Source of the DNA: a virus
Length of the DNA: 28,235 nucleotides
IMG/VR virus record: IMGVR_UViG_3300049740_002247
Location: 1 to 28,235 of that record
Direction: 5' to 3' (one strand)
The position numbers and the translations under genes were made by a program. A model generated the notes under the pieces. It ran no database searches, was not told the origin of the DNA, and was given only the letters and a program-made list of their open reading frames with translations. Shown piece by piece: positions 269 through 26,902 of this stretch. How positions within the stretch are numbered: position 1 is the stretch's first letter; each line of letters starts with the position of its first letter.

Positions 269-1876
269 ATGATTGAAAAAAGTGTGATTTTCGGCGATGA
301 TAGCCGGGAGAAACTTAAAAAGGGAATTGATATACTAGCAGAAGCAGTTTCATCTACCCTTGGTGCTTCTGGAAGAACTGTAATCATAGAAGACCAATTT
401 GGAACCCCCCACATTACTAAAGATGGGGTGACAGTAGCAAACAGTATTATACTATCAGATCCTGTTGAGAATCTTGGAGCAAGCATTTTAAAACAGGCGT
501 CACAAAAAACCGCCACAGAGGCAGGGGACGGAACAACGACCTCGTGCGTTTTAGCAAAGTCTATTATCGACAACTGTTTTATGAATATAGACAAGATCGA
601 TAATGTAACTCAAGCAAAAGAAGGGATAGAGACAGCAGCTAAAAATTTAGTGAGTATCCTGGAAAAAATGAAAAAGGAAGTTTCACCTGACACCCTTGAG
701 CAGGTAGCAACAATTTCTGCAAACGGCGACAACTACATTGGTAAAATGATTTCAGATGCCTATAACAAGGTTGGAGTAGACGGCGTTGTAACAATGGACG
801 AATCTCCCACAGGCGAAGACTATACTGAAATTACCAACGGAACCAAAATAAAAAGAGGGTACGGGACGCCATTTAGCGTGAACAACCTCCGCGCAAAGTC
901 AGTGGAGTACCAAAACCCACTTATAGTCGTTAGCGACACAAAGATAGACATGCATGAAAGACTTCACTTTGCCTTTGAGCAGTCAATCAAACAAAAACGA
1001 CCGCTTTTGATCATTTCTGATTTAGATGACAGGGTAAAGCTATTCATTGCACAGAATATAAATAAAAAAAATCTGACAGCAAACTTTATTCTACCTGAAG
1101 GTATAGGGATTAAAAAGTTTGAACTATTGGAGGATTTGTGCGTTATGACAGGAGCAAAGATGATATCAGAGATGTCAGGAGATGCAAAAGAGAACATTGA
1201 TGAGTCCTACCTTGGTACTTGTAGACAAATGATATCAAACTCTTCTGAAACCGTGCTTGTCTTTGATGACGAGCCAAACCAAAAGAAACAGGAGATCATT
1301 GAGTGGATTAGTAATGAGATCAAACTTGAGAAGAATAAGACTGAAAAGTGGCACCTGCAGGATAGACTGTCTAAGTTAGCTGGTGGGGTGGCTACTATTA
1401 AGCTTGCTGGTAACTCAGAAGTTGAGCTTAAAGAGAAAAAGGATCGTGTAGATGACTCCATCCACGCAACTAAAGCTGCCCTTGAGGAAGGGATTGTTGC
1501 TGGTGGAGGTATTGCCCTACTAGACGCTTTCCAAAAAATCGGCGGAAAAGCGCCCCGAGGCTCCTCCCCTTCATTTGCGTTAGGCTATAAAATGATGGTT
1601 TGGTCTATACCAACAGTATGGGATAAGATCATTTCGAACTCTGGGCAGGAAATCGACCCTCATAGTGAAAGGAAGATGAAGAACAGACGTAAAGGATATG
1701 GTATTGATGTTAAAACCAAAAAATTCGGTAATATGTTTAACATGGGCATTGTTGATCCATTTAAGGTTACAAAGAACGCAATACTAAATTCTGCATCTGT
1801 GGCCTCCACGATTCTAACGACATCATGTGTAATTTCTAATAAAAGAATAAAAAAGACAGATGAAAGCAGTGGGTAA
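269..1876 (+). CDS. groEL: Phage-encoded chaperonin GroEL (Hsp60)
   Basis: A 535-aa group I chaperonin, expected to form the ATP-driven folding ring. It is collinear with E. coli GroEL in both equatorial segments. The phosphate loop GDGTTT is at residues 86-91 and ITKDGV with Asp52 is present. The hinge motif RVDDSIHATKAALEEG carries Asp396, equivalent to the catalytic Asp398, followed by GIVAGGG. GNMFNMGIVDPFKVTK carries Asp496, equivalent to Asp495. The apical domain is much more divergent. The C-terminus ends in a Lys/Ser tail and lacks the usual Gly-Gly-Met repeats, so the ring cavity floor would differ. Its last 17 bases overlap the groES start, indicating coupled translation. It sits at the head of a virion gene region, so its clients are probably phage structural proteins (inference). 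The family assignment is secure. Confidence 0.96.
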   Translation: MIEKSVIFGDDSREKLKKGIDILAEAVSSTLGASGRTVIIEDQFGTPHITKDGVTVANSIILSDPVENLGASILKQASQKTATEAGDGTTTSCVLAKSIIDNCFMNIDKIDNVTQAKEGIETAAKNLVSILEKMKKEVSPDTLEQVATISANGDNYIGKMISDAYNKVGVDGVVTMDESPTGEDYTEITNGTKIKRGYGTPFSVNNLRAKSVEYQNPLIVVSDTKIDMHERLHFAFEQSIKQKRPLLIISDLDDRVKLFIAQNINKKNLTANFILPEGIGIKKFELLEDLCVMTGAKMISEMSGDAKENIDESYLGTCRQMISNSSETVLVFDDEPNQKKQEIIEWISNEIKLEKNKTEKWHLQDRLSKLAGGVATIKLAGNSEVELKEKKDRVDDSIHATKAALEEGIVAGGGIALLDAFQKIGGKAPRGSSPSFALGYKMMVWSIPTVWDKIISNSGQEIDPHSERKMKNRRKGYGIDVKTKKFGNMFNMGIVDPFKVTKNAILNSASVASTILTTSCVISNKRIKKTDESSG

Positions 1877-2138
1877 GTTTGTAATCGTCCAAGATGAGGA
1901 GGTTATACAAAAAAATGATTTAGGATTAATTATTACAGAGCAATCAGATCAGAACATTAGGTACATAATCGGTGAGGTTGTAAGTTGTGGTGATGATGTA
2001 AAAGAGGTAAAACCAGGTCAATACGTTTACTTTGATAAAGTGTCAGGCTCTGAGCTGCGCGTCAAAGGTAATAAGTACAAAGCCATCCGGGAGCAAGACG
2101 TGGTTGTAACTATGGATAATGTTGATTCCGTTATTTGA
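1860..2138 (+). CDS. groES: Phage-encoded co-chaperonin GroES (Cpn10)
   Basis: A 92-aa Cpn10-type beta-barrel expected to cap the phage or host GroEL ring. It starts with KFVIVQDEE, matching the first GroES strand. A mobile-loop region with hydrophobic LGLII (about residues 22-26) stands where GroES has GGIVL. It then shows GEVVSCGDDVKEVKPGQYVYF, the typical GEV...VK.GD.V.F pattern, and ends in the IREQDVVVTMD strand. The gene begins inside the groEL end and its own end overlaps the next start by 20 bases, so the three genes form one translationally coupled unit. The length (92 versus about 97 aa) and order are normal for Cpn10, but the sequence is divergent, fitting a partner co-evolved with the phage GroEL. 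Confidence 0.93.
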   Translation: MKAVGKFVIVQDEEVIQKNDLGLIITEQSDQNIRYIIGEVVSCGDDVKEVKPGQYVYFDKVSGSELRVKGNKYKAIREQDVVVTMDNVDSVI

Positions 2139-5071: not shown

Positions 5072-8000
5072 ATGGCTAGAATACATACATATGATCTAGA
5101 CGGAACCATAGACCCAAACGATAGAATTATTGGTTCCGATGGAGCCGAAGGAGCAAACTTCGCAACTAAAAACTTTACAGTTAGTCAACTACAGTCATAT
5201 ATATCTGGTGGTTTGTCTAGCTTTTCTACAATTCAAGTTAACGGCCAGAGTGATGTGACAGCATCATCAGGATCAGCACTAAAGTTTGTTGCAGGAGCAA
5301 ACGTAACACTCTTGACAGACCCAAGCCAGAACTCTATTACCATAGCATCATCAGGTTCAGGAGGTAGTGGGGGAGGAACAGGAACAGTGACTTCAGTTAC
5401 GCCTGCAGACACTAATCTTTTGACGATCACAAACCAAACTACAAACCCTGAAATTGCAGTAGTAACGGCAGCTCCAGTTAGTGGAGGAACAGGTCTTGTT
5501 ACATCAGGAGATGTCTTCACTTATATTACCAATCAGTCTTTTACATCAAACGCAGGAACAGTAACTGAGATCACTGCAGGCACAGGTTTGACAGGAGGAT
5601 CTATCACGGACACTGGCACAATAGATTTAGCAGATACATCGGTGCAAGCAGGTGATTACACAAACGCTAACATCACAGTAGATGCACAAGGTCGTATTAC
5701 TGCAGCAGCAGATGGTACGGCTGGTTCTAGCGGCAGCTCAATGACTTTTACAGCATCATCACCCTTAACAGGAGGTGTTATAGGCGATGGAGAGGCTTTG
5801 GGCATAACACAAGCATCAGCAAATACAGATGGTTTTCTTTCCTCTGATGACTGGAACACCTTTAATAATAAGGTTAGCTATCCATCTGCTGACCAAACAA
5901 AATTAGCTGGTATTGAAAATGGAGCTGAGGTAAACGTAAAAGCGAACTGGAATGAGTCAAATTCAAACAGTGATGCGTTTATTCAAAACAAACCAACAAT
6001 CCCAACAAATAACAATGAACTCACAAATGGGGCTGGCTATACAACAAACACAGGTACTGTGACAAGTGTTCTTGGTGGTGCAGGTTTATCTGGGTCTGTA
6101 ACAACATCAGGAAGCTTAGCGATAGATTTAAATGACATTGCAGGTGATTCACTGGCTATATTGACAGACTCTATTGCATTTGTAAATTCTACTAACGCAA
6201 CAAGAAAGACAACTGTTAATTCGCTATTAACAAGTGTCGCGGGGTCAGGCCTTCAAGTAAACAGTACAACAGGTCAATTAGAGACTACAGGAACAGGAAG
6301 TGGATCTGTTACATCAGTTGGATTAAGTTTTGGAACAATACAAGCTTTTACAGTAAGTGGAAGTCCAATCACAGGTAGTGGAACATTGTCGGTTTCCATG
6401 GGAGGGGCTTCGTCACAAGTGGTGTTAGGAGATGGGTCTTTAGGTTCATATACTACGGGAACAGTAACATCTGTTGCTACGAGTGCACCATTGACCGGAA
6501 CAGTAACAACGACTGGTACAATTGGAATAACTCAAGCAAGCACTTCACAAGATGGGTATTTATCAGCATCTGATTTCCAAACTTTCAATAACAAAGGAAC
6601 AGGAACAGTAACAAGTGTAAGTGGCGGAACAGGTATTTCTGGAACAGTTACAGCTTCAGGAAGCTTAGATCTCGATCTAAACTCACTAGGCACTGAGGTG
6701 TCAGTCAAGGAAGACTTCTTTGTCTTTACTGATACAAGCGACTCAAACAATCCAAAAAAACAAGCGCTATCTGGATTTTTATCAGGTATAGCGGGATCCG
6801 GATTACAATATAATTCTACGTCGGGAGAACTCGAAGGCGTGTCTGGTGGTGGAGGGACTGTTACAAACGTAACTAGTGCCACAACCGGTCAGCTTACGGT
6901 TGCAAGCGGTAACTCAACACCTGCACTCTCAATTGTCACAGGCTCAGTTGTAGATTCAGGAACAGCTTTAGCGACAGGCGATCAAATCTATGATTTTGTA
7001 ACTACACAAGGATATACAACAAATACAGGTACGGTCACAAGTGTAAGTGGTGGTACTGGACTGTCAGGAACGGTGACAGCGTCAGGAAGCATAGATTTAG
7101 ATCTAAACGGATTATCACCTGTAGCTATAGATGTTGCAAACGACTTTATTGCTTTTGCAGACGCAAGCGACAGTGGAAATACCAGGAAGACAACAATTGC
7201 ACTACTTGCAACAGCTATGGCGGGATCAGGCATTAATGCTAACAATGGTGTGCTTAGTGCGGCATCTGCATCGGGCGTTACTAGTGTAACCGGAACATCG
7301 CCTATTGTTTCATCAGGAGGAACAACACCAGCAATATCCTTAGCGAACTCAGGTGTAACAGCAGGGGATTATACGAATGCAAATATTACTGTTGATGCAT
7401 TTGGACGTGTGACGGCTGCTGCAGATGGAACAGCTGGTAGTGGAAGTGGCGCGACAAGTCTTACAGGGCTATCTGATGCTAATGTAGAAAATGCATCACT
7501 TTATGTAGGTAACGACCCATCTGGAATTACTACACAAGCACTATATAACACAGTATTAGGTTTAACTGCAGGTGATACTTTAACAAGTGGAGACAGTAAC
7601 GTCTTTGTAGGGTATGATGCAGGTCTTACATACACAACGGGTGATAGGTCTGTTGCTGTTGGATATCAGGCAGGTTTAAATACAAATGCTAACGATGTTG
7701 TAGCTATAGGAACGGGTGCTGGTAAGAATGCGACAACTTCGTCCATTGCTATTGGTTCGAATGCGCTGTCAAACACCGGGCTTGTTGGGGCTAACAACAC
7801 GGCTATCGGATACGAAAGTATGTTAAACGCACAAGCATCTCACAGTAGTGTAGCTGTTGGATACAGATCTTTAAGACAGACTTCTGGTGGTATTAGAAAC
7901 ACCGGTGTCGGCCACAAAGCGTTGACAACACAAACAAGTGGTTCAGACAACGTTGCGGTTGGTTTTGAGGCTTTAGAATTTATAACGACTGGATTTAAGA

Positions 8001-9265
8001 ATACAGCTGTCGGATCTGATGCTGGTCAAAACATTACAACAGGATCAAACCTTACGACTATAGGATTTAATGCTCAGCCTAGCTCTGATATTGCACAGAA
8101 CGAAATTACCCTGGGAGATACGAATGTAACTAAGCTAAGGATCCCAGGTTTAGCAGACGCTGCAGCGGATGATGGTAAGGTTTTAACATACAGCAACTCA
8201 TCAGGGGCATTTGTTGCAACTAGCCCAACTGGGTCTTCGGTTAGCTCTTTCAATGACTTAACAGATGGACAAGCTAACTCAACAGATAAGTGGATATTCT
8301 TAGGTGATCACGCAACATGGACAAATAGTAACGCTAACGATAATATGATAGGTATTGGGTTTAACCAGCTCAACAACCTCACAACTATGGCGTATAACCA
8401 GGGCGGTTTGATAGCTATTGGTAACCAAGTATTTAATTCTATTTCAACATCGAACTTTTTTGGCGGTTTTGCCATTGGACACGGAGCGGGTGCAAATCAA
8501 GTATCGGGTCAGGGAATGTTTTATATAGGGGGTTCAGCAGGTGGAAACACAACTACGGGTAGTTACAATACATTTGTTGGTGGTGCTGCAGGAATGAATG
8601 TAGGATCAGGATCTTACAACACCACTTTAGGTAGAGCAACATTATCTTCCTCTGGCTTAAAAGACTGTGATTATAATATCGCTATCGGTGATAGTGTTCT
8701 AGGTGGCCCAGACCCGGGTGATCATAACATTGCAATGGGAACTCTTGCTTTAAACGCAATAGATAAGTCAGTAACCGGAGATAGCCAAAACAACATTGCT
8801 ATTGGTTCGAGATCATCTACAGACCTAACGAGAGGTTATGGAAACGTTGCAATGGGTGTTGATTCTGGTGGTAACATAACAACAGGATATAACAACACAG
8901 TTATTGGTCATGAAGCGGCATGGCAACCTACAGGATCAAACTTAACGACTGGAAACAACAATATCGTAATTGGGTATCAGGCTAAAACAAGGTTCCCTAG
9001 CTCTGACAACGAGATTATACTTGGAAATAATGATAATGACATCCTGAGAATACCAGGTCTGGCAAGACTAACTGGAGATGAAGATAAAGTTTTGGCTTAC
9101 AACCACGCAGCTGGAGGGTTCGTTGCTAATGATGATTTTGTAAAATCTTCTTCACCTAGTGGAACGCAGATTACAGAGATTGTCACGTTGTCGCAAACGG
9201 AGTACGACGCTTTATCCATAGGATCCAACACGCCTGATGCAGACAAATTATATATTATAGTGTAA
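5072..9265 (+). CDS. Giant tail fibre with YadA-like beta-roll modules (1397 aa)
   Basis: Probably a trimeric receptor-binding fibre. Residues 1-50 (MARIHTYDLDGTIDPNDRII to QLQSYISG) form a short head shared in pattern with the fibre at 14580, probably the virion anchor. Residues about 100-800 are Gly/Ser/Thr-rich beta repeats, with recurring GTVTSVSGGTGLSGTVTASG units. Residues about 840-1050 and 1090-1350 are two modules of left-handed beta-roll repeats like YadA/Hia heads (SVAVGYQAGL, SSIAIGSNAL, NTAIGYES). Each module ends in E-I-x-LG...LRIPGLA and then G/DKVLxY...FVA. The C-terminus TEIVTLSQTEYDAL...LYIIV is a typical fibre end. Repeat-driven recombination is likely. The TAATG overlap couples it to the next gene. 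Several antisense frames inside it are compositional artefacts. Confidence 0.92.
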   Translation: MARIHTYDLDGTIDPNDRIIGSDGAEGANFATKNFTVSQLQSYISGGLSSFSTIQVNGQSDVTASSGSALKFVAGANVTLLTDPSQNSITIASSGSGGSGGGTGTVTSVTPADTNLLTITNQTTNPEIAVVTAAPVSGGTGLVTSGDVFTYITNQSFTSNAGTVTEITAGTGLTGGSITDTGTIDLADTSVQAGDYTNANITVDAQGRITAAADGTAGSSGSSMTFTASSPLTGGVIGDGEALGITQASANTDGFLSSDDWNTFNNKVSYPSADQTKLAGIENGAEVNVKANWNESNSNSDAFIQNKPTIPTNNNELTNGAGYTTNTGTVTSVLGGAGLSGSVTTSGSLAIDLNDIAGDSLAILTDSIAFVNSTNATRKTTVNSLLTSVAGSGLQVNSTTGQLETTGTGSGSVTSVGLSFGTIQAFTVSGSPITGSGTLSVSMGGASSQVVLGDGSLGSYTTGTVTSVATSAPLTGTVTTTGTIGITQASTSQDGYLSASDFQTFNNKGTGTVTSVSGGTGISGTVTASGSLDLDLNSLGTEVSVKEDFFVFTDTSDSNNPKKQALSGFLSGIAGSGLQYNSTSGELEGVSGGGGTVTNVTSATTGQLTVASGNSTPALSIVTGSVVDSGTALATGDQIYDFVTTQGYTTNTGTVTSVSGGTGLSGTVTASGSIDLDLNGLSPVAIDVANDFIAFADASDSGNTRKTTIALLATAMAGSGINANNGVLSAASASGVTSVTGTSPIVSSGGTTPAISLANSGVTAGDYTNANITVDAFGRVTAAADGTAGSGSGATSLTGLSDANVENASLYVGNDPSGITTQALYNTVLGLTAGDTLTSGDSNVFVGYDAGLTYTTGDRSVAVGYQAGLNTNANDVVAIGTGAGKNATTSSIAIGSNALSNTGLVGANNTAIGYESMLNAQASHSSVAVGYRSLRQTSGGIRNTGVGHKALTTQTSGSDNVAVGFEALEFITTGFKNTAVGSDAGQNITTGSNLTTIGFNAQPSSDIAQNEITLGDTNVTKLRIPGLADAAADDGKVLTYSNSSGAFVATSPTGSSVSSFNDLTDGQANSTDKWIFLGDHATWTNSNANDNMIGIGFNQLNNLTTMAYNQGGLIAIGNQVFNSISTSNFFGGFAIGHGAGANQVSGQGMFYIGGSAGGNTTTGSYNTFVGGAAGMNVGSGSYNTTLGRATLSSSGLKDCDYNIAIGDSVLGGPDPGDHNIAMGTLALNAIDKSVTGDSQNNIAIGSRSSTDLTRGYGNVAMGVDSGGNITTGYNNTVIGHEAAWQPTGSNLTTGNNNIVIGYQAKTRFPSSDNEIILGNNDNDILRIPGLARLTGDEDKVLAYNHAAGGFVANDDFVKSSSPSGTQITEIVTLSQTEYDALSIGSNTPDADKLYIIV
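6047..7108 (+). repeat. Dispersed 87-bp (29-aa) repeats in the giant fibre
   Basis: Three copies of a 29-residue unit of the form [N/G]TGTVTSVsGGtGlSG then TVTASGSlDLDLN occur at 6047-6133, 6596-6682 and 7022-7108, with shorter GTVTSV echoes at about 5384 and 6458. They diverge mainly at synonymous sites, so the repeat is selected at protein level. Each precedes a segment of the form ...FiaFaD.sdSnn.rKtti..ll...AGSGl, so the true period includes more than the 29 residues. Confidence 0.75.
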
Positions 9266-16733: not shown

Positions 16734-19700
16734 ATGCCAGAGCAAAAGTTTTTAACAAACTTAGACGTAGCCGGCACTGTTGATTTAAGCAACTTAACAA
16801 TCGACGGTGCTCAGGGTGCTGATGGTCAAGTATTAACTTCTACAAGCTTTGGTATTGCTTGGGAAGATGCTTCTGGAGGTGCTAGCCTTTCAGGTGGTGA
16901 AGCTAATAAAGTAGCCATATGGAGCGCTACTGATACTTTAACACATAATGACAACTTTCATTTTGATACTACAAATGTAAGGCTTGGCATAGGTACGTCA
17001 AGCCCATATGCTAAGCTTCACATTAAAGAAACAAGTAATTCCGGATCGGCAGGGTATCTTTTGCAAGTGCAAAGTGTAAACGGGGGAGGTGATTATTTTA
17101 ATACATCTGGTTTTCATAGAGACAGCAGCCAAAACATGCGTCTATCCCTTAATAGGAACACCCAGATCAACGGGAACACAGTGTTAATAAATTCTTCTGG
17201 CAATTCTTATTTAGTCGGAGGTGATTTAGGAATAGGAACGTATAGCCCCGGGGAAAAGCTGGATGTTAATGGAAATATACGGCTAGCTCAGTACGGATAT
17301 ATATACTTTGGATCTAATAGCAGTAATCAACTGAGTCTTTCAAATAGCTTATCAGGCTCTCAAATAACACAATCTGGATCTGGAAGTCTAGAACTGCAAT
17401 CTGCAAGTAATGATATACATCTTAAAGCCGGTGGTTTAACAAAAGCTGTAGTTCGCGCTAGCGGAAAAGTTGGTATTGGTACAACCACCCCCGACTCCAT
17501 GCTGCATTTAAAATCTACAGGCGACGTAAAACTAATTTTAGAAGCAGACTCAGATAACTCTGGCGAAAATGATAACCCTTTAATTGAATTAAAACAAGAT
17601 AATTCAGGTATAATAGGTAGACTTGGAATGGTTGGTGATGCCGGTCAATTGTTTACAAATTCAAGAACAAACTCAACAGGTTTAGGCACTGTTTATCAAC
17701 AAGACCTTATATTTTTTACAGAAAACTCAGCAAGGGTATACATTAAAGGCGAAAGTGGTTATCAAGGTAGGGTCGGTATTGGAACAGCAACCCCGTCGCA
17801 TCCACTTCACATTACGGGCACTGGGCTGGCTTCCTCTAGTTTTAGAGCTCCAATATTCTACGATTCAAATGATACTAATTATTATGTAGACCCTTCCAGT
17901 ACTAGCCAAGTAAATAACGTTACTATGAACGGTGAGCTAATTTTAGATAGTTACGGAGGTACTACTAAATTTATAGCAGGAAGTGGCGATGCCGCAAATT
18001 ACACTAATCAAAATGTTATTTTATCAGGTTGGAATGGTTTAGGATTTTATAATCCTACGTCGGGAGGAAGTTATACAAATCAAACGACGGCTTTTTATGA
18101 TTTTAGAAATGGCATATTTAGTGTAAAAGGCTCTCATAGAGCCCCTGTATTCTACGACTCAGATAACACTGATTACTACGTAAACCCCAGTGCTTCCGGT
18201 GTATCTTTACACATTAACGGAATAATTGATCAAGATTTTCAAGTAACAGATTTAAATTCAGCATGGACAGCTCCTGGAACAAGCAGGGATCAAGGTTTTA
18301 TAGTTGGTAGATATCAAGGTAATGCTTCAAATAGACCGCATCACAATGATAATGCTAACTGGTTTGCAAATATATATTCACACGCTTCTGGAGGTACAGC
18401 GTCATATGGTATACAATTAGCAGGATCAAATGCTGCTTCTGGTGAGAACTCATTATCTTTAAGAACTGTAAGCAACGGGAGTTTTAGCTCATGGAGAAAA
18501 GTTTTTCATGAAGGACACACCCCAACAGCAGCAGAAGTGGGTGCGGCAGCATCTTCACACAACCATGCGGCATCTGATATAACTTCAGGAACGTTTGCAA
18601 CAGCAAGGATCCCTAGTTTAGACGCTTCTAAAATAACTTCTGGAACGTTTAGTGATTTGTTTGCTAATAGCACTAGATATAATTTTGGGCTTATAGACGG
18701 AAACTCAAGCCAAACAAGAGATAAATTAAGAGTTTGGAACAGTAGTTCTTATACTATAGGTATGAAGAGCGGCTTTACTTTTGGACATTTAAATGACTAC
18801 GCTATGTCATTCCAAATGAACAATGATAATGATAGAGGCTGGTGGTGGGGAGATGATGCACACACGGATGCGCAAGGCGCAATGTCATTAACTACTAATG
18901 GTAAACTAACTGTTGCTACATCATTATCTATTGGGCAAGGGGAATCTATCACATCAGCATCAACAGTACCTTTATTTGTTGACGGTACTGCTGTTTTTGA
19001 CACAACCTCAAACACTGAGCCTGTGTGTATAAGTAGATCCGGCAGCACTTCTACAGAGGTTTTAAAAATAGGTGTAACTGACACTATTGCAACATTTAAT
19101 TATATAGAAGACACTTCGAGCGAAGGCACAGGTAATTTTGGAAGATACGATTTTATACTAGGAGGCAATTCTAGTGAAACGTCCGTTACACCATTAATAT
19201 TAGAAAAAACAAAAACCACATCAAACGCAGGTGCTTTTACGTTTGGTACGCCAGGGAATGGAAGTAATACATTAGGAAGATGGCTAAGTTTTGAAGGAAA
19301 TGCAGATAGCAGTGGTGAAGGTTCTGGTAGATTATTTTTCTCAGAACACAATAGCTCTACAACCGATATGGATGATTATGGTATGTCTATCGGTTATAGA
19401 GGTGGCAGCGCATCTGTAACAACAGCTGGTGGTAATACTTGGACAGGTTTATCAGCTATTGGTAATGGCCAGTGGGGAATGTGGGGCCATAATAATAGTC
19501 TTGCTGGTTCATTAATTATGTCCGGTGATAGAAACGCTACTTATGTCAATTTTAATGGTAATAATATTACAAATGTTGGCGATCTTACTGCTACAGGATT
19601 ATTTATAGGTGGAACTGGAGCGGCTAATGAATTAGACGATTACGAAGAAGGAACTTATAATTTGAAATGGAGTTTAGGAGGGAGTGCAACTTATGATGGT

Positions 19701-20135
19701 AATACCCAAAATTTTGGCTCCCTCTACCAAAATACATCAAAATATGTTAAAATAGGTAGGGTTGTACATATATTTTTAAAGTTTGAATTTAACTCTCATC
19801 CATCAAATTGGGCTAGCAGCGGTTCATATGTTTATTTAACAAATCTTCCATTTACACCGCTTTCGGGTTCAGTAGGTGGAAACTTCTCTATGCAGTGGAA
19901 CAGCGACATAAGTAGTAGCGAACAAATTAAGGATTATGGAGGCGCTGGGCACTTTGGGCACAACGGGAGCATTAGCACCAGCCTCATACAGTTAGGTGTA
20001 AGCGGAAGATACAGTTTTGGTTATTACAGCGGTTGGAGTAATAGTGGGTCTCTGCTAGCTAACGACTTTCCAGGAGCGTCGCCAGGTGGAGCGAATGCAA
20101 TGGTGGGGCATATAATGTATTATACAAATAGTTAA
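16734..20135 (+). CDS. Large tail fibre protein (1133 aa)
   Basis: The N-terminus MPEQKFLTNLDVAGTVDLSN then GADGQVLTSTSFGIAWEDAS is a typical fibre head. Residues about 84-365 carry four LGIGTxxPxxKLHI-type motifs (coding near 16983, 17229, 17469 and 17772), each followed by beta-rich spacers. Two copies of RAPxFYDSxxTxYYVxPS follow, at about 17847 and 18141. SSWRKVFHEGHTP, GAAASSHNHAASDI and TSGTFATARIP are classic fibre motifs. The C-terminal 170 residues begin LDDYEEGTYNLKWSLGG and contain YVKIGRVVHI, a known-looking distal domain, ending MVGHIMYYTNS. It is probably the main receptor-binding fibre of the second cluster. No intramolecular chaperone (endosialidase-type) domain is visible at its end. 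Confidence 0.9.
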   Translation: MPEQKFLTNLDVAGTVDLSNLTIDGAQGADGQVLTSTSFGIAWEDASGGASLSGGEANKVAIWSATDTLTHNDNFHFDTTNVRLGIGTSSPYAKLHIKETSNSGSAGYLLQVQSVNGGGDYFNTSGFHRDSSQNMRLSLNRNTQINGNTVLINSSGNSYLVGGDLGIGTYSPGEKLDVNGNIRLAQYGYIYFGSNSSNQLSLSNSLSGSQITQSGSGSLELQSASNDIHLKAGGLTKAVVRASGKVGIGTTTPDSMLHLKSTGDVKLILEADSDNSGENDNPLIELKQDNSGIIGRLGMVGDAGQLFTNSRTNSTGLGTVYQQDLIFFTENSARVYIKGESGYQGRVGIGTATPSHPLHITGTGLASSSFRAPIFYDSNDTNYYVDPSSTSQVNNVTMNGELILDSYGGTTKFIAGSGDAANYTNQNVILSGWNGLGFYNPTSGGSYTNQTTAFYDFRNGIFSVKGSHRAPVFYDSDNTDYYVNPSASGVSLHINGIIDQDFQVTDLNSAWTAPGTSRDQGFIVGRYQGNASNRPHHNDNANWFANIYSHASGGTASYGIQLAGSNAASGENSLSLRTVSNGSFSSWRKVFHEGHTPTAAEVGAAASSHNHAASDITSGTFATARIPSLDASKITSGTFSDLFANSTRYNFGLIDGNSSQTRDKLRVWNSSSYTIGMKSGFTFGHLNDYAMSFQMNNDNDRGWWWGDDAHTDAQGAMSLTTNGKLTVATSLSIGQGESITSASTVPLFVDGTAVFDTTSNTEPVCISRSGSTSTEVLKIGVTDTIATFNYIEDTSSEGTGNFGRYDFILGGNSSETSVTPLILEKTKTTSNAGAFTFGTPGNGSNTLGRWLSFEGNADSSGEGSGRLFFSEHNSSTTDMDDYGMSIGYRGGSASVTTAGGNTWTGLSAIGNGQWGMWGHNNSLAGSLIMSGDRNATYVNFNGNNITNVGDLTATGLFIGGTGAANELDDYEEGTYNLKWSLGGSATYDGNTQNFGSLYQNTSKYVKIGRVVHIFLKFEFNSHPSNWASSGSYVYLTNLPFTPLSGSVGGNFSMQWNSDISSSEQIKDYGGAGHFGHNGSISTSLIQLGVSGRYSFGYYSGWSNSGSLLANDFPGASPGGANAMVGHIMYYTNS

Positions 20136-20925: not shown

Positions 20926-21192
20926 ATGGCAAAAAGTAAAAAACCAGAAGTGGTAAAACTTGATGATTCAGTTGTTGAAGAACTAAAACAGCTAAGAACA
21001 GAACAATCCAACACACAGCTTGATATTGGCGCACTGTCTACACAGCAACACATTTTGCAAAACAGAATGGTTGATCTTGGTCAGCAACTCCAAGGAAAGT
21101 TAAATGAATTAGAGAAAGAGCACGGACAGGGCTCTATCGACCTAGAAGCGGGTGAGCTTCATTTGGGTGCTCCAGACAATGGAAATTCGTAA
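20926..21192 (+). CDS. Coiled-coil protein, first gene of the packaging block (88 aa)
   Basis: An 88-aa hydrophilic protein with a basic start (MAKSKKPEVVKLD), a long heptad-rich helix (EELKQLRTEQSNTQLDIGAL, STQQHILQNRMVDLGQQLQG, KLNELEKEHG) and an acidic Gly end. No TM or signal is present. Similar small coiled-coil proteins sit just upstream of the terminase in several Bacteroidetes phages as I recall. It could be an oligomeric accessory or a structural protein. It overlaps the following start by 14 bases. Confidence 0.82.
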   Translation: MAKSKKPEVVKLDDSVVEELKQLRTEQSNTQLDIGALSTQQHILQNRMVDLGQQLQGKLNELEKEHGQGSIDLEAGELHLGAPDNGNS

Positions 21193-21403
21193 AATATCCA
21201 TAGGGTCTGATTACAAGGGCAGCGCCATGCATTACATCGTTAACCAAGATGTTTTGAATGGCGCTTATACCATACACCTCATTGACTTTGATGAGGACAA
21301 AATCTCTTTCCGTGTATATGTAGAAAAGAACAACGAAGTTTTTTTATGGAAAGAGTTCAATAAAAACATACCTGTATCTGTTGAGTACAATATAAACTTT
21401 TAG
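21179..21403 (+). CDS. Conserved-looking small protein MEIRKISIGSDYKGSAMHYIV (74 aa)
   Basis: The frame is open from 21152, but ATG 21179 (MEIRKISIGSDYK) gives the family-like start and a short 14-base overlap with the preceding gene. Motifs: IRKISIGSDYKGSAMHYIVN, then GAYTIHLIDFDEDKISFRVY, then EVFLWKEFNKNIPVSVEYNI. I remember closely similar proteins in crAss-like and other Bacteroidetes phage genomes near the terminase; none has a known function. It is mostly beta-strand with no TM segment. Confidence 0.86.
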   Translation: MEIRKISIGSDYKGSAMHYIVNQDVLNGAYTIHLIDFDEDKISFRVYVEKNNEVFLWKEFNKNIPVSVEYNINF

Positions 21404-21404
21404 G

Positions 21405-21959
21405 ATGAAATCTCCTTACTACTTCATTATCAAGCCGTTAGGCGACGAATACAATAATGAGGTGGAGATATCAGGGCAAAAGATCATAGTCAACTCTACG
21501 GTTGAGGATCATAAGCATGTAAATAGACTTGCGGAAGTTGTTTATGCTCCAAGCAGGAGTACAAAAGTCAAGTCTGGCGACATAATAGTCGTACATCACA
21601 ATATATTCAGGATATACTACGACATGAAAGGTAGGGCAAAGAAATCGCCCAACTACTTCAAAGATGGTATGTATTTTATAGATGAATATCAGTTTTATCT
21701 TTACAATGACGGAAAAGAGTGGAAGTCAGTTGGCAATTATTGCTTTGTCCAGCCAATAGATAAAGAAAATTCTTATCTTTATGAGGAGGGTACAGAGCTC
21801 AACACCGGGTATGTTGTATACGATAATGATTACCTAAACGACCTTGGTGTTAAATTAGGCGATAAAGTAAACTTTACTAAAAACAGTGAGTATGAGTTTA
21901 CTATAAACGACACTGTTTTGTACCGTATGAGAACTAACGATATATGTGCCTTGCTATGA
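21405..21959 (+). CDS. Tandem GroES-like fold protein (184 aa)
   Basis: The two halves each follow the GroES strand order. Half 1: YYFIIKPLGDE (5-15), LAEVVYAP (42-49), KVKSGDIIVVHHNIFRI (54-70), then YFIDEYQFYLY (90-100). Half 2: NYCFVQPIDKEN (111-122), GYVVYDND (135-142), GVKLGDKVNFTKNSEYEF (148-165), then TVLYRMRTNDICALL. These match GroES 'RVIVKR...', 'GEVLAVG', 'VKVGDIVIF' and 'EEVLIMSESDILAI'. No clear mobile loop is present in half 2. The bona fide GroES at 1860 is separate, so this is a second, duplicated Cpn10-like barrel placed with head genes. It could be a capsid-specific chaperone, cap or structural protein (inference). The fold call is by eye and untested. Confidence 0.75.
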   Translation: MKSPYYFIIKPLGDEYNNEVEISGQKIIVNSTVEDHKHVNRLAEVVYAPSRSTKVKSGDIIVVHHNIFRIYYDMKGRAKKSPNYFKDGMYFIDEYQFYLYNDGKEWKSVGNYCFVQPIDKENSYLYEEGTELNTGYVVYDNDYLNDLGVKLGDKVNFTKNSEYEFTINDTVLYRMRTNDICALL

Positions 21960-22234
21960 AAGATGTAAATGAAATAAAAGAAAGAATCATAAAGGCTGGG
22001 CATGAAGCTGTCAACCAGCTCATAAAGGTTGCGGAAGAGGAGATCATAAAACCAGATCCAGATGATGAGCTCGCTGCAGATAGGTTAAAAAATGCTGCAG
22101 CTACAAAAAAACTAGCGATATTCGATGCTTTTGAAATACTTAACAGAATTGAGAACGAAAAGAACTTGATAGAGAATCCAGAAGAGGAAAAAACAAATTT
22201 AACAGGTGGTTTTGCAGAACGAAGATCTAAATAA
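21956..22234 (+). CDS. Candidate small terminase or accessory protein (92 aa)
   Basis: ATG 21956 overlaps the preceding stop as ATGA; the upstream ATG 21944 in the same frame is less likely. The protein is helical and acidic: EIKERIIKAGHEAVNQLIKV, then DPDDELAADRLKNAAATKKL, then AIFDAFEILNRIENEKN. The ADxLKNAAATKKLAIFDAFEIL segment looks family-specific. Its size, all-helical build and position directly upstream of TerL (29-base overlap) make it the best small-terminase candidate in the window, but no DNA-binding motif is obvious. Confidence 0.83.
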   Translation: MKDVNEIKERIIKAGHEAVNQLIKVAEEEIIKPDPDDELAADRLKNAAATKKLAIFDAFEILNRIENEKNLIENPEEEKTNLTGGFAERRSK

Positions 22235-24458
22235 TTTAGGTGTTGTACTAAAGGACTTTATACCAAAAAAGATCTTAGATGACACAAACAAAAAAAAGGG
22301 GTTCCGTTATGGATACAATCCTGATATAGATGCTGTAGTTATATCCAAAGATGGTACGATAGGAGATGTAGTCAGAATTAATCATTTAAACATAGCTCTT
22401 CCAAAAAAACCTGCAGATATTCATAAAAGGGCAGTTAAACGGAAAGATCAGTTCTGGGAAGCATCTGAGTATCCGAAACAACTACGCCCATTACAGACCA
22501 TATTTCAGTGGAATGAAATGCCCCGTGATTTCAAAGAAACATGGGTTCCTTATATCGAAAAGGTGTTTAACTACAGAGAGAATGGTTATTGGTTTTACAA
22601 CAAAGGAACGCCAACGTACATTACAGGGAGTCATTATATGTACCTACAATGGACTAAAATTGATATAGGTAAGCCGGAGTACAGGGAGTCAAATAGAATA
22701 TTTTTTATATTCTGGGAAGCGTGTAAAGCAGATTCTAGGTGTTATGGAATGTGTTACTTAAAGAACAGGAGATCTGGGTTTTCATTTATGTCATCAGCTG
22801 AAGCCGTCAATCAAGCCACCATAACATCAGATGCTAGGTTTGGGATATTGTCAAAGACGGGTGCTGATGCAAAAAAAATGTTTACAGATAAAGTTGTACC
22901 TATATCTGTTAACTACCCATTTTTTTTCAAACCAATTCAGGATGGTATGGATAGGCCGAAGTCTGAGTTAGCCTATAGAGTTCCTGCATCAAAACTCACA
23001 AGAAAATCAATAGCTAACACAAACATTATTAGTGACTTACAGGGACTAGATACCACAATAGATTGGAAGAATACAGGGGACAACAGTTACGATGGTGAAA
23101 AACTTGCACTTCTTGTTCACGATGAAAGTGGTAAGTGGGAAAAGCCAGATAACATACTAAACAATTGGAGGGTTACCAAAACATGTTTGAGGCTTGGTAG
23201 TAGGGTTATCGGTAAGTGCATGATGGGATCAACAAGTAATGCTTTAGATAAAGGTGGAAACAACTTTAAAAAACTGTTTTATGACTCTGACCCCACAACA
23301 CGCAACTCAAACGGACAAACCAAAAGTGGCATGTATAGCTTGTTTATTCCTATGGAGTGGAACATGGAGGGGTTTATAGATAAGTATGGGCAACCTGTTT
23401 TAGAGACACCAGATTCGCCAATAACCAGCGTAAATGGTGATGACATTCACCAAAGCGCATTACAATATTGGCAAAACGAAGTGGATAGTCTCAAAAATGA
23501 TCCAGATGCATTAAATGAATTTTACCGTCAATTCCCACGTACTGAGTCACATGCGTTTAGAGACGAGTCAAAGAACACCTTATTTAATTTGACAAGAATA
23601 TATGAGCAGATAGATTACAACGATTCATTTGCTATCAAATCAAGTGTAAGTAGGGGAAACTTTTACTGGAAGAATGGTCAAAGGGATACAGAAGTTGTGT
23701 TTTCTCCTGATAGAAAAGGTCGGTTTTTTTTAAGTTGGATACCATCCAAAGAAATGATGAACAATGTAGAGGAAAGAAACGGACGTAAGTTCCCTGGTAA
23801 CGCTCATATAGGAGCCTTTGGTTGTGACTCATATGATATATCGGGAACAGTTGGTGGTGGTGGATCAAAAGGATCTTTGCATGGAATGACTAAATTTCAC
23901 ATGGATGACGCTCCAACTAATATGTTTTTCCTAGAATACATATCCAGACCTCCAACAGCAGAGATATTTTATGAAGATGTGTTAATGGCTTTACATTTTT
24001 ATGGCATGCCAATTCTTGTCGAAAACAACAAACCTAGATTACTATATTATCTCAAGGACAGGGGTTACAGGCCTTTTTCTATAAATAGACCAGATAAACA
24101 TAAAAACATACTGTCAAGAGCAGAAAAAGAGCTCGGTGGCATACCTTCATCTCAATCCGTAATTTCTGTACATGCAGAAGGTATAGAAAGCTTTATTCAA
24201 ACTCATGTTGGTGTGATAAAAGACGAAAGAGATACGGACTTTGGAAGTTGTGGAAATATGTTTTTTAATAGAACTTTGTTGGATTGGGCAAACTATGATA
24301 TAAATAACAGAACCAGGTTTGATGCCACAGTAAGTTCGGGTTTTGCGATTATGGCAAATCAAACGACAAAGAATAACAGACAAGAAAAACGTAATCAAAT
24401 AAATCTTAACTTTGCAAAATACAGTAACAAAGGTTTTGTTAGTGAAATTATTAGGTGA
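22206..24458 (+). CDS. terL: Terminase large subunit (750 aa)
   Basis: The packaging motor ATPase and headful nuclease. GTG start at 22206, overlapping the preceding gene by 29 bases. NGYWFYNKGTPTYITGSHYM (about 129-148) is the N-terminal signature shared with crAss-like and related TerL. A deviant Walker A KNRRSGFS at 186-193 has the lysine at the start. Walker B is LALLVHDE with Asp306-Glu307, and the coupling motif is MMGSTSN at 339-345. The RNase H-like nuclease acids are Asp541 (FGCDSYD), Glu606 (ILVENN) and Asp706 (TRFDATVSSG). The length is in the large class typical of Bacteroidetes phages. The portal gene follows, with its ATG two bases after this stop. Confidence 0.94.
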   Translation: MVLQNEDLNNLGVVLKDFIPKKILDDTNKKKGFRYGYNPDIDAVVISKDGTIGDVVRINHLNIALPKKPADIHKRAVKRKDQFWEASEYPKQLRPLQTIFQWNEMPRDFKETWVPYIEKVFNYRENGYWFYNKGTPTYITGSHYMYLQWTKIDIGKPEYRESNRIFFIFWEACKADSRCYGMCYLKNRRSGFSFMSSAEAVNQATITSDARFGILSKTGADAKKMFTDKVVPISVNYPFFFKPIQDGMDRPKSELAYRVPASKLTRKSIANTNIISDLQGLDTTIDWKNTGDNSYDGEKLALLVHDESGKWEKPDNILNNWRVTKTCLRLGSRVIGKCMMGSTSNALDKGGNNFKKLFYDSDPTTRNSNGQTKSGMYSLFIPMEWNMEGFIDKYGQPVLETPDSPITSVNGDDIHQSALQYWQNEVDSLKNDPDALNEFYRQFPRTESHAFRDESKNTLFNLTRIYEQIDYNDSFAIKSSVSRGNFYWKNGQRDTEVVFSPDRKGRFFLSWIPSKEMMNNVEERNGRKFPGNAHIGAFGCDSYDISGTVGGGGSKGSLHGMTKFHMDDAPTNMFFLEYISRPPTAEIFYEDVLMALHFYGMPILVENNKPRLLYYLKDRGYRPFSINRPDKHKNILSRAEKELGGIPSSQSVISVHAEGIESFIQTHVGVIKDERDTDFGSCGNMFFNRTLLDWANYDINNRTRFDATVSSGFAIMANQTTKNNRQEKRNQINLNFAKYSNKGFVSEIIR

Positions 24459-24460
24459 TT

Positions 24461-26902
24461 ATGATAAATAAGCCGAAGTTCATTTCAGGCAGTGGTTTTC
24501 CTAATCAATTTGTGTCAGACATAGAGAAGGATACGTATGAGTATGGTCTCCGTGTTGGGCATGCTATTGAGTCCGAATGGTTCGCAAGAGACCACGGTAG
24601 TAGTATATATGGGGAAATAAGATCTGAATATTTAACTAGAAGATTGTACGCTAGAGGGCAGCAGCCTGTTGATAAGTACAAAAACGAATTATCCGTCAAT
24701 GGCGATCTTTCTTATTTAAACCTTGATTGGACACCCGTCCCTATCATTCCTAAGTTTGTAGATGTTGTAGTCAATGGCATATCTAATAGGCTATTAGATG
24801 TTAAAGTTGAAGCAGTAGATGATTTGTCTTCTATGAAAAGGGAGATGTTTAAAAGGGATATGCAATCAGATATGTCAGCAAAACCTGTGCTGTCTATGAT
24901 AAAGCAAAATACAGGAGTTGATGCATTTTTATTTCCACAAGAAGAAATACCAGAGACTGATGAGGAATTAGGGCTGTATATGGATCTTAAGTATAAGCAA
25001 GGCGTGGAGGTTGCTGAAGAGGCAGCTATTAAAACCATTTTAGAGCTTAACGAATACGACGAGCTAAAAAGAAGAATAGACGAAGATAATGTTGTTCTTG
25101 GTATTTCAGCTATGAAACACTCTTTTGACCCTCACCACGGTGTTCGTCTAGAGTATGTTGATCCTGTAAATTTTGTATACTCACCAACTGAAGACCCAAA
25201 TTTTAGAGATTGTTATTACTTCGGAGAGGTAAAATCTGTACATGTTACAGAGATAAAAAAAATAAATCCAAGTCTTACACAGGAAGAAATAGAGGAAATA
25301 TCAAAACTTGCAAGTAGGTTTGATGGTTACAGAAGCACACAGAACCTTCAGAGTCAGAGTGGTTTAGATAAATCTAACGTTAGTCTTCTTTACTTTTGCT
25401 ACAAAACAGATCGTGAAGTTGTATACAAGGTTAAGCAAAACCAAAACGGTGGCGAAAAGCCGTTAAAAAAAGACGGTAACTTTAACCCTCCTAAGACAGA
25501 ACAAGCTAGATTTACAAGGGTAGCAAGAAGGATAGACGTATGGTATGAAGGTGTGCTTGTTTTAGGAACAAATCATTTATTAAAGTGGGGAGTAATGAGT
25601 AATATGGTTAGGCCAAAATCGGCTTTTCAAAAAGCTCTACCCCCATATATTGCATCTGCCATAAAAATGTCAAAAGGTAATGTAGATTCTTTAGTCAAAA
25701 GAATGATCCCTTTTGCTGACCAAATACAATTAACACACCTAAAACTACAACAGGTCGTTGCGAAAATGATACCAGATGGTGTGTTTATTGATGCTGATGG
25801 TTTAAATAGTGTAGACCTTGGTAATGGGGCGTCTTATAACCCTTCTGAAGCCCTATCTATGTATTTCCAAACAGGTAGTGTTATCGGTAGAAGTTACACG
25901 GAGGACGGTGACTTTAACAACGCTCGAGTTCCTATCCAAGAGTTAACTAGCAGTGGATCAAATGCTAAGATCGCAAGTCTTATTAATATGTACAACTACC
26001 AGCTCAACATGATTAGAGCTGTAACGGGCATCAATGAGGCGAGAGACGGAAGCAACCCTGATCAATATGCTCTTGTAGGTTTACAAAAACTAGCTGCCTT
26101 AAATAGTAATACAGCAACAAGACACGTTATTCAGTCTGGTATATTCCTAACAAAAAGGCTTGCAGAAGCTATATCTTACAGAATATCCGATATACTAGAG
26201 TATGCTGATTTCTCTGAAGACTTTGCGAAGATGATAGGGAAAAATAATTTTGAAATTGTTCAAGAAGTAAAATCACTTCATCTACATGACTTTGGTATAT
26301 TCATTGAAATTGAGCCTGATGAAGAAGAAAGACAAATGTTGGAGCAAAATATTCAGCAATCGATTCAATCAGGACAGATAGGCTTAGAGGATGCTATTGA
26401 TATTCGCAGCATAAAAGATATTACTCTTGCAAACAGTTTACTGAAGATACGTAAGGTAAGAAAAGAGAAGAAAGAGATGGAAAAGCAACAAGCAGCCATC
26501 CAGATGCAGACTCAATCAAATACTCAATCTGCTCAAGCTGCTTCTCAATCAAGAATGCAGGAAGAACAATTTAAAACTCAATCTGAATCTCAGATGGAGC
26601 AAATGAAAGCGGAGTTAGAGTTGCAACGTATGCAAGCAAAACAGCAACTTGACGCAGAGATGTTAAAACTTAAGCATCAATTCGACCTAGAACTAAAACA
26701 AGCGGAAGCTAATATTTTTAAGGGCAGAGAGGAGTATAAAGAGAATCGTAAAGATAACAGAACAGACAAGCAAGCCTCTCAACAGAGTAAATTAATTAGA
26801 CAACGCAAAGATAACACGCCTCCTGTTGATTTCGAAAAGGAAGGTGAAAACTCTGATGTTTTAGCTAACTTTAGAAATATGATGGGTCAAGAAAACGCAT
26901 AG
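24461..26902 (+). CDS. Portal protein (813 aa)
   Basis: The dodecameric DNA gateway. ATG 24461 (MINKPKF), two bases after the terL stop, is preferred to GTG 24455. The N-terminal half (EYLTRRLYARGQQPVDKYKN, SYLNLDWTPVPIIPKFVDVV, VNGISNRLLDVKVEAVD) is typical of the large portals of crAss-like and related phages. A central part (KMSKGNVDSLVKRMIPFADQ, INEARDGSNPDQYALVGLQK) corresponds to the portal stem and crown. The last 150 residues are a Gln-rich coiled coil (MQEEQFKTQSESQMEQMKAE) and a charged tail, a common portal ending. The position between terL and the scaffold/capsid genes confirms the call. Confidence 0.92.
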   Translation: MINKPKFISGSGFPNQFVSDIEKDTYEYGLRVGHAIESEWFARDHGSSIYGEIRSEYLTRRLYARGQQPVDKYKNELSVNGDLSYLNLDWTPVPIIPKFVDVVVNGISNRLLDVKVEAVDDLSSMKREMFKRDMQSDMSAKPVLSMIKQNTGVDAFLFPQEEIPETDEELGLYMDLKYKQGVEVAEEAAIKTILELNEYDELKRRIDEDNVVLGISAMKHSFDPHHGVRLEYVDPVNFVYSPTEDPNFRDCYYFGEVKSVHVTEIKKINPSLTQEEIEEISKLASRFDGYRSTQNLQSQSGLDKSNVSLLYFCYKTDREVVYKVKQNQNGGEKPLKKDGNFNPPKTEQARFTRVARRIDVWYEGVLVLGTNHLLKWGVMSNMVRPKSAFQKALPPYIASAIKMSKGNVDSLVKRMIPFADQIQLTHLKLQQVVAKMIPDGVFIDADGLNSVDLGNGASYNPSEALSMYFQTGSVIGRSYTEDGDFNNARVPIQELTSSGSNAKIASLINMYNYQLNMIRAVTGINEARDGSNPDQYALVGLQKLAALNSNTATRHVIQSGIFLTKRLAEAISYRISDILEYADFSEDFAKMIGKNNFEIVQEVKSLHLHDFGIFIEIEPDEEERQMLEQNIQQSIQSGQIGLEDAIDIRSIKDITLANSLLKIRKVRKEKKEMEKQQAAIQMQTQSNTQSAQAASQSRMQEEQFKTQSESQMEQMKAELELQRMQAKQQLDAEMLKLKHQFDLELKQAEANIFKGREEYKENRKDNRTDKQASQQSKLIRQRKDNTPPVDFEKEGENSDVLANFRNMMGQENA

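Follow-up and report, generated by a model that had tools for sequence, protein, structure and literature searches.

One report regards co-chaperonins in which two GroES-like domains are joined head-to-tail as peculiar to plant-lineage eukaryotes (PMC3542282). The chloroplast/apicoplast Cpn20 is built in this way, with both domains keeping their mobile loops (PMC3542282), and exists beside a single-domain Cpn10 and a GroEL-type (group I) chaperonin. Cpn20 assembles with Cpn10 into mixed rings, and on the seven-fold chaperonin ring the chloroplast two-domain lids are accommodated either in this mixed form or as lids of six or eight domains that bind asymmetrically (PMC5780408). Among phages, the co-chaperonins T4 gp31 and RB49 CocO are single-domain proteins, and the phages that encode them use the host GroEL (PMC9598537).

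A candidate phage counterpart of Cpn20, hereafter the tandem protein, is encoded in the stretch of viral DNA analyzed here (IMG/VR record IMGVR_UViG_3300049740_002247, 28,235 nucleotides, hereafter the window). The protein family and its GroES label are already known: PHROG 13932 and the RefSeq entries named “co-chaperonin GroES” include proteins of Cellulophaga, Maribacter and Flavobacterium phages (phi38:1 gp089, phi18:3 gp096, elemo gp30), and “chaperonin cpn10” is listed among the Pervagoviridae core genes (PMC8776804); the deposited phi38:1 and MW202828 records label the homologue hypothetical. The window protein shares with these entries both the family and the position ahead of the terminase large subunit (TerL), but the two-domain build is not stated in the PHROG and RefSeq phage records, and the literature searched contained no account of phage GroES proteins with a tandem or double build. 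Within that literature, the two-domain architecture and the combination of GroEL, single GroES and tandem GroES in one genome thus appear to be undescribed.

Genomic context of the tandem gene

The tandem gene lies among the genes for packaging and head proteins, about 19 kb from the chaperonin genes of the same phage. The relevant features of the window are the following:

269..1876, + strand: phage GroEL (Pfam Cpn60_TCP1, E 1.8e-60)
1860..2138, + strand: phage single-domain GroES with the mobile-loop motif LGLIIT (Pfam Cpn10, E 1e-10, 41.9 bits)
21152..21403, + strand: small ORF upstream of the tandem gene, 83 aa if the listed GTG is the start
21405..21959, + strand: tandem GroES-type protein, 184 aa in the ORF list (PHROG 13932, E 1.8e-23 over residues 1-183; predicted structure below)
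21956..22234, + strand: small TerS-like candidate, ~92 aa when read from the ATG overlapping the stop codon of the tandem gene, proposed from its sequence, with homologues in 126 loci
22206..24458, + strand: TerL (PHROG 6681, E 4e-177)
24455..26902, + strand: portal protein (PHROG 6547, E 2.1e-156)

The tandem gene begins one base past the stop codon of the preceding ORF; a small ORF occupies the same place in phi38:1, elemo, MW202828 and Panino. At the other end, the tandem stop overlaps the ATG of the TerS-like ORF (ATGA at 21956-21959), which in turn overlaps the TerL gene, and the stop codon of the TerL gene lies within the beginning of the portal gene. Because the genes overlap all the way from the tandem gene to the portal gene, the tandem gene is part of a tightly packed late operon. 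Around it, promoter-like sites were no more frequent than in shuffled sequences, and the terminator scan found no terminator-like site. The preliminary description of this DNA, which had been made from the sequence without database searches, placed the gene with head genes, beside a TerS candidate and far from groES, and this placement was borne out.

The linkage to the terminase is not peculiar to the window: wherever a TerL match was found, in 127 loci, TerL lies downstream of the tandem gene; two further loci, one of them just 1.6 kb long, lack such a match. In 24 loci, the projected gap between the tandem stop and the TerL start is 350-1480 nt, compared with the usual ~250 nt, possibly because of an additional ORF or a more extended TerS-like part. 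The TerS-like candidate itself has no family match in Pfam or PHROG. Its end, ...GGFAERRSK, resembles (weakly, E 0.13) the N-terminal extension (...RGFAEKF) seen in phi38:1, elemo and Panino, whose TerL is longer (876-879 aa), and the sequences suggest a small terminase part that has been either split from TerL or fused to it. Elsewhere in the window, two very long Gly/Ser/Thr-rich ORFs (5072-9265 and 16734-20135; 1397 and 1133 aa) probably encode tail or fibre proteins.

Two predicted GroES-type barrels in one protein

The protein divides into two halves, for which the lines of evidence differ:

21405..21716, + strand: N-terminal GroES-like domain, residues 1-104
21717..21956, + strand: C-terminal GroES-like domain, residues 105-184

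The preliminary description read the GroES order of motifs in each half. The motifs are present at the places given (IIKP, EVVYAP and VKSGD in the N-half; FVQP, YVVYDND, VKLGD and NDICALL in the C-half), but the final “D-I-xxL” strand is confined to the C-half, and the N-half terminates in DEYQFYLY instead.

The sequence identifies the C-half as a GroES homologue. The window protein matches Pfam Cpn10 (PF00166) at residues 138-183 only, that is, in the C-half, with 19.6 bits, which is below the curated cut-off of 21.1 bits; this cut-off is passed by the homologues phi38:1 gp089 (24.1 bits) and phi18:3 gp096 (33.3 bits). When profiles built from 98 aligned relatives were compared with a GroES profile using hhalign, the C-half matched with E 1.5e-6 and a probability of 90% (E 2e-5 in control mode), and its control-mode score, 28.5-30.7, far exceeded the maximum of 9.2 among 60 column-shuffled controls. 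The N-half aligned in the GroES register, with the first strand, a glycine-rich loop carrying a hydrophobic triplet, an A-E-V strand and then K-x-GD, at E 0.0026 and a probability of 12%; its control-mode score of 13.7-15.4 surpassed the column-shuffled maximum of 12.9 by a small margin. With HMMER, the GroES profile scored the N-halves no better than shuffled sequences and, therefore, the claim for this half rests on the structure together with the weak profile alignment. Searched against the PDB as a single sequence, the tandem protein yielded no co-chaperonin match, and a profile search gave only marginal GroES matches (E ~0.8). Weak matches to Pseudomonas phages (E 0.08) were taken as chance.

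The AlphaFold2 model of the full-length protein (mean pLDDT 81.5, pTM 0.79) had as its best Foldseek match in the PDB the chain 7ekq_R (E 3.5e-5, 202 columns, TM 0.51), which is named “Cpn20 co-chaperonin subunit” by the PDB and represents the chloroplast tandem co-chaperonin of the Chlamydomonas ClpP complex (PMC8889267). The next entries in the list are mycobacterial, Thermus, human and E. coli co-chaperonins, with T4 gp31 (1g31_A) at rank 24. Folded alone, the N-half was predicted with a mean pLDDT of 84.6, and its two best matches among 350,542 PDB chains were GroES, namely, 8wuw_a (probability 1.00, TM 0.52) and E. coli GroES 1aon_O (probability 0.96), with modest E-values of 0.012 and 0.034; the list for this half also includes the GroES-like domain of alcohol dehydrogenase-type enzymes. 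All the informative fold matches of the tandem protein are co-chaperonins. Both halves are accordingly predicted to be GroES-type barrels, the N-half mainly on the basis of its modelled structure and with less certainty than the C-half. The earlier proposal of two GroES-type folds in tandem is thus strongly supported for the C-half and, for the N-half, mainly through the predicted structure; no fold unrelated to the GroES barrel emerged for either half, and neither family nor fold searches produced a confident match to a head-tail connector or tail protein.

Several other assignments were considered and set aside. A recent internal duplication was rejected given that the N-half and the C-half share no detectable similarity (E 0.75). 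Matches to a “minor head protein” PHROG (E 0.11) and, for 2 of 49 members, to a “head-tail adaptor” (best E 0.055) were treated as noise.

Loops and conserved motifs

Three short regions of the tandem protein bear on its possible interactions:

21438..21527, + strand: mobile-loop equivalent of the N-domain, residues 12-41
21591..21602, + strand: V-H-H-N motif, residues 63-66, delineated from the alignment
21759..21806, + strand: shortened, variable loop of the C-domain, about residues 119-134

In the N-domain loop, which hhalign aligned with the E. coli GroES loop GGIVLTGS, the hydrophobic triplet I27-I28-V29 is encoded at 21483-21491. Across the 98 aligned sequences, these positions are L/I/F, I/V and V/I in nearly all cases, with mostly G-G ahead of them and N/S-T/S-S/T behind. 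The usual loop motif (LGLIIT, SGLILS and similar) is present in the single-domain GroES proteins that these genomes encode. The N-half shares with bacterial GroES, and with the single GroES of the same phage, both the predicted fold and the mobile-loop triplet; these are one-domain proteins encoded next to groEL. The C-domain loop is little conserved and has low pLDDT at residues 121-130, so that, judging from the sequences, each tandem subunit may possess one clear GroEL-binding loop, located in its N-half. The V-H-H-N motif is of a different kind: H64, H65 and N66 are identical in 98 of 98 sequences, but the motif is replaced in the distant phi18:3 homologue and is not a feature of GroES. 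It might form a metal or substrate site.

Co-occurrence with GroEL and single-domain GroES

We searched for chaperonin partners in 36 records containing the tandem gene, of which 11 were at least 57 kb long (the near-identical phi38:1 and phi40:1 both count among the 11). Single-domain GroES was present in 11 of these 11 records and GroEL in 10; in the shorter contigs, GroEL and single GroES were either both found or both missing. The earlier count, with one GroEL beside two GroES-like products, is correct for the window and applies throughout the family. The exception is phi18:3, a complete genome of 71 kb with both the tandem and the single GroES, in which no GroEL gene was detected; in this phage, both co-chaperonins would have to use the host GroEL.

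The phage GroEL retains the ATP-site aspartates D52, D87 and D398 (E. coli numbering) in 13 of 13 aligned phage sequences, whereas the apical groove is changed at E. coli positions L234, L237, L259, V263 and V264, which are H, F, K, A and Q in the window, and the C-terminal GGM tail of E. coli GroEL is absent. Such a residue pattern is consistent with a chaperonin that remains active and has partners of its own; it does not indicate a preference for either lid.

Proposed function and alternative explanations

We consider it likely, with a probability of roughly 0.7, that the tandem protein is a Cpn20-type two-domain co-chaperonin that remains outside the virion and caps a GroEL ring, that of the phage or else that of the host, for the folding of late proteins. 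The protein would be made from the late head and packaging operon as a non-virion factor, and its N-half loop, in which the hydrophobic triplet is observed directly, would dock into the apical groove of GroEL. It would cap the phage's own ring where there is one, and otherwise the ring of the host, and late proteins, for instance, the capsid, portal or terminase, would fold inside. A mixed seven-domain lid, for example, three tandem subunits and one single subunit as in the chloroplast Cpn20/Cpn10 rings, seems the likeliest arrangement because every long record also encodes a single-domain GroES; a pure tandem ring would have one domain too many or too few. Several observations do not sit easily with a co-chaperonin: the N-half is weak by sequence, the window protein falls under the Pfam Cpn10 cut-off, the C-domain loop is short and variable, the gene is strictly linked to TerL rather than to groEL, the HHN motif is unlike GroES, and phi18:3 lacks a detectable GroEL.

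The preliminary description had drawn its comparison with T4 gp31, which is indeed a phage co-chaperonin, as is RB49 CocO, and is among the structural matches; the closer architectural precedent is nevertheless chloroplast Cpn20, the best match over the full length. Also unlike the T4 and RB49 systems, the phage in the window carries its own GroEL along with a single GroES. The parallel with Cpn20 extends to the head-to-tail arrangement and to the coexistence with a single-domain co-chaperonin and a group I chaperonin, although in phi18:3 the chaperonin would be that of the host. The tandem protein differs from Cpn20 in being phage-encoded and linked to terminase genes, in its reduced C-domain mobile loop, and in its longer N-domain hairpin and HHN motif. 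Given only 14% identity in the structural alignment, convergence with the plastid protein is more likely than shared ancestry. A more far-reaching scenario, in which phages independently arrived at the chloroplast solution, with a viral GroEL and a mixed 3:1 lid of two- and one-domain subunits, and the late-made tandem subunit switches the chaperonin to head and terminase substrates, is put forward tentatively and strikes us as rather doubtful in its entirety.

The most serious competitor of the co-chaperonin interpretation, itself unlikely, is that the GroES fold has been reused for an assembly or packaging factor independent of GroEL, for instance, a ring or adaptor that acts together with TerL, the TerS-like protein or the portal and not as a lid. 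The invariable linkage to TerL with overlapping genes, the VHHN and SEYEF-type motifs that are invariant and absent from GroES, and the lack of GroEL in phi18:3 would all be compatible with such a role. However, the N-half keeps a GroES-type mobile loop, which would be needless in a structural barrel, the co-occurrence with single GroES and GroEL is near-perfect, and the C-half is a true GroES by sequence in a protein whose informative fold matches are co-chaperonins throughout.

That the tandem protein is a minor structural component of the head or the head-tail junction appears improbable. The location of its gene among head genes is in keeping with this possibility, but no connector or virion family was matched, and the MS/MS annotations of relatives point elsewhere. 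In the phi40:1 record, virion proteins labelled by MS/MS are gp77, 80, 87, 91-93, 95 and 97-101, with gp85 suggested by its note, and in phi18:3, they are gp085-087, 099, 104, 112-115, 120, 121 and 123. The portal and many neighbours are labelled in both records, whereas the tandem homologues (phi40:1 gp089 and phi18:3 gp096) are not, and neither is TerL (gp090) of phi40:1. This distribution fits a non-virion factor, although the evidence comes from relatives and is weak for a low-copy protein, which mass spectrometry can miss. The preliminary description had left the choice between a co-chaperonin cap and a structural part; the cap is now favoured since the homologue is absent from the MS/MS-labelled virion proteins of phi40:1 and phi18:3. 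The notes in the phi38:1 record (KC821614) cite structural proteins of “phi18:1” under gene numbers in agreement with phi40:1, which looks like a labelling error.

Finally, capping of another ring, such as host ClpP, which would shield phage proteins from proteolysis, is very improbable: binding of the Chlamydomonas chloroplast Cpn11/20/23 complex to ClpP has been reported (PMC8889267) and the best structural match comes from that ClpP-bound complex, but this match is explained by which tandem structure is available rather than by the partner, the sequence gave no evidence of binding to ClpP, and the co-occurrence with GroEL and GroES points to a chaperonin.

A co-chaperonin role would make this large phage family, in which the double-domain layout is always accompanied by a single GroES in the long records examined, a second system besides the plant lineages for studying why a chaperonin ring with an odd number of subunits would employ a lid subunit with an even number of domains, and whether substrates are selected by the lid. 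Cultured phages with their hosts (Cellulophaga phi38:1 and phi18:3, and the Flavobacterium elemo phages) make the tandem co-chaperonin directly testable.

Distribution of the family

In IMG/VR, the tandem family was represented by 47 loci in the first scan and by at least 589 stretches in the alignment scan. Named phages with members of the family belong to Pervagoviridae (phi38:1, phi40:1, Calle) and Elemovirus, or are Maribacter phage Panino and MW202828, and more distant homologues are encoded in Pachyviridae (phi18:3, phi13:2, phi19:3, phi46:3). Among the loci found in genome assemblies, 7 of 11 were titled Bacteroidota, and the remainder had Maricaulis or archaeal titles. From these relatives, we infer that the host of the phage in the window belongs to Bacteroidota. 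The contigs with the tandem gene that were placed in bins labelled Maricaulis, Pacearchaeota and Woesearchaeota (loci L151, L156, L158 and L161) probably represent binning errors.
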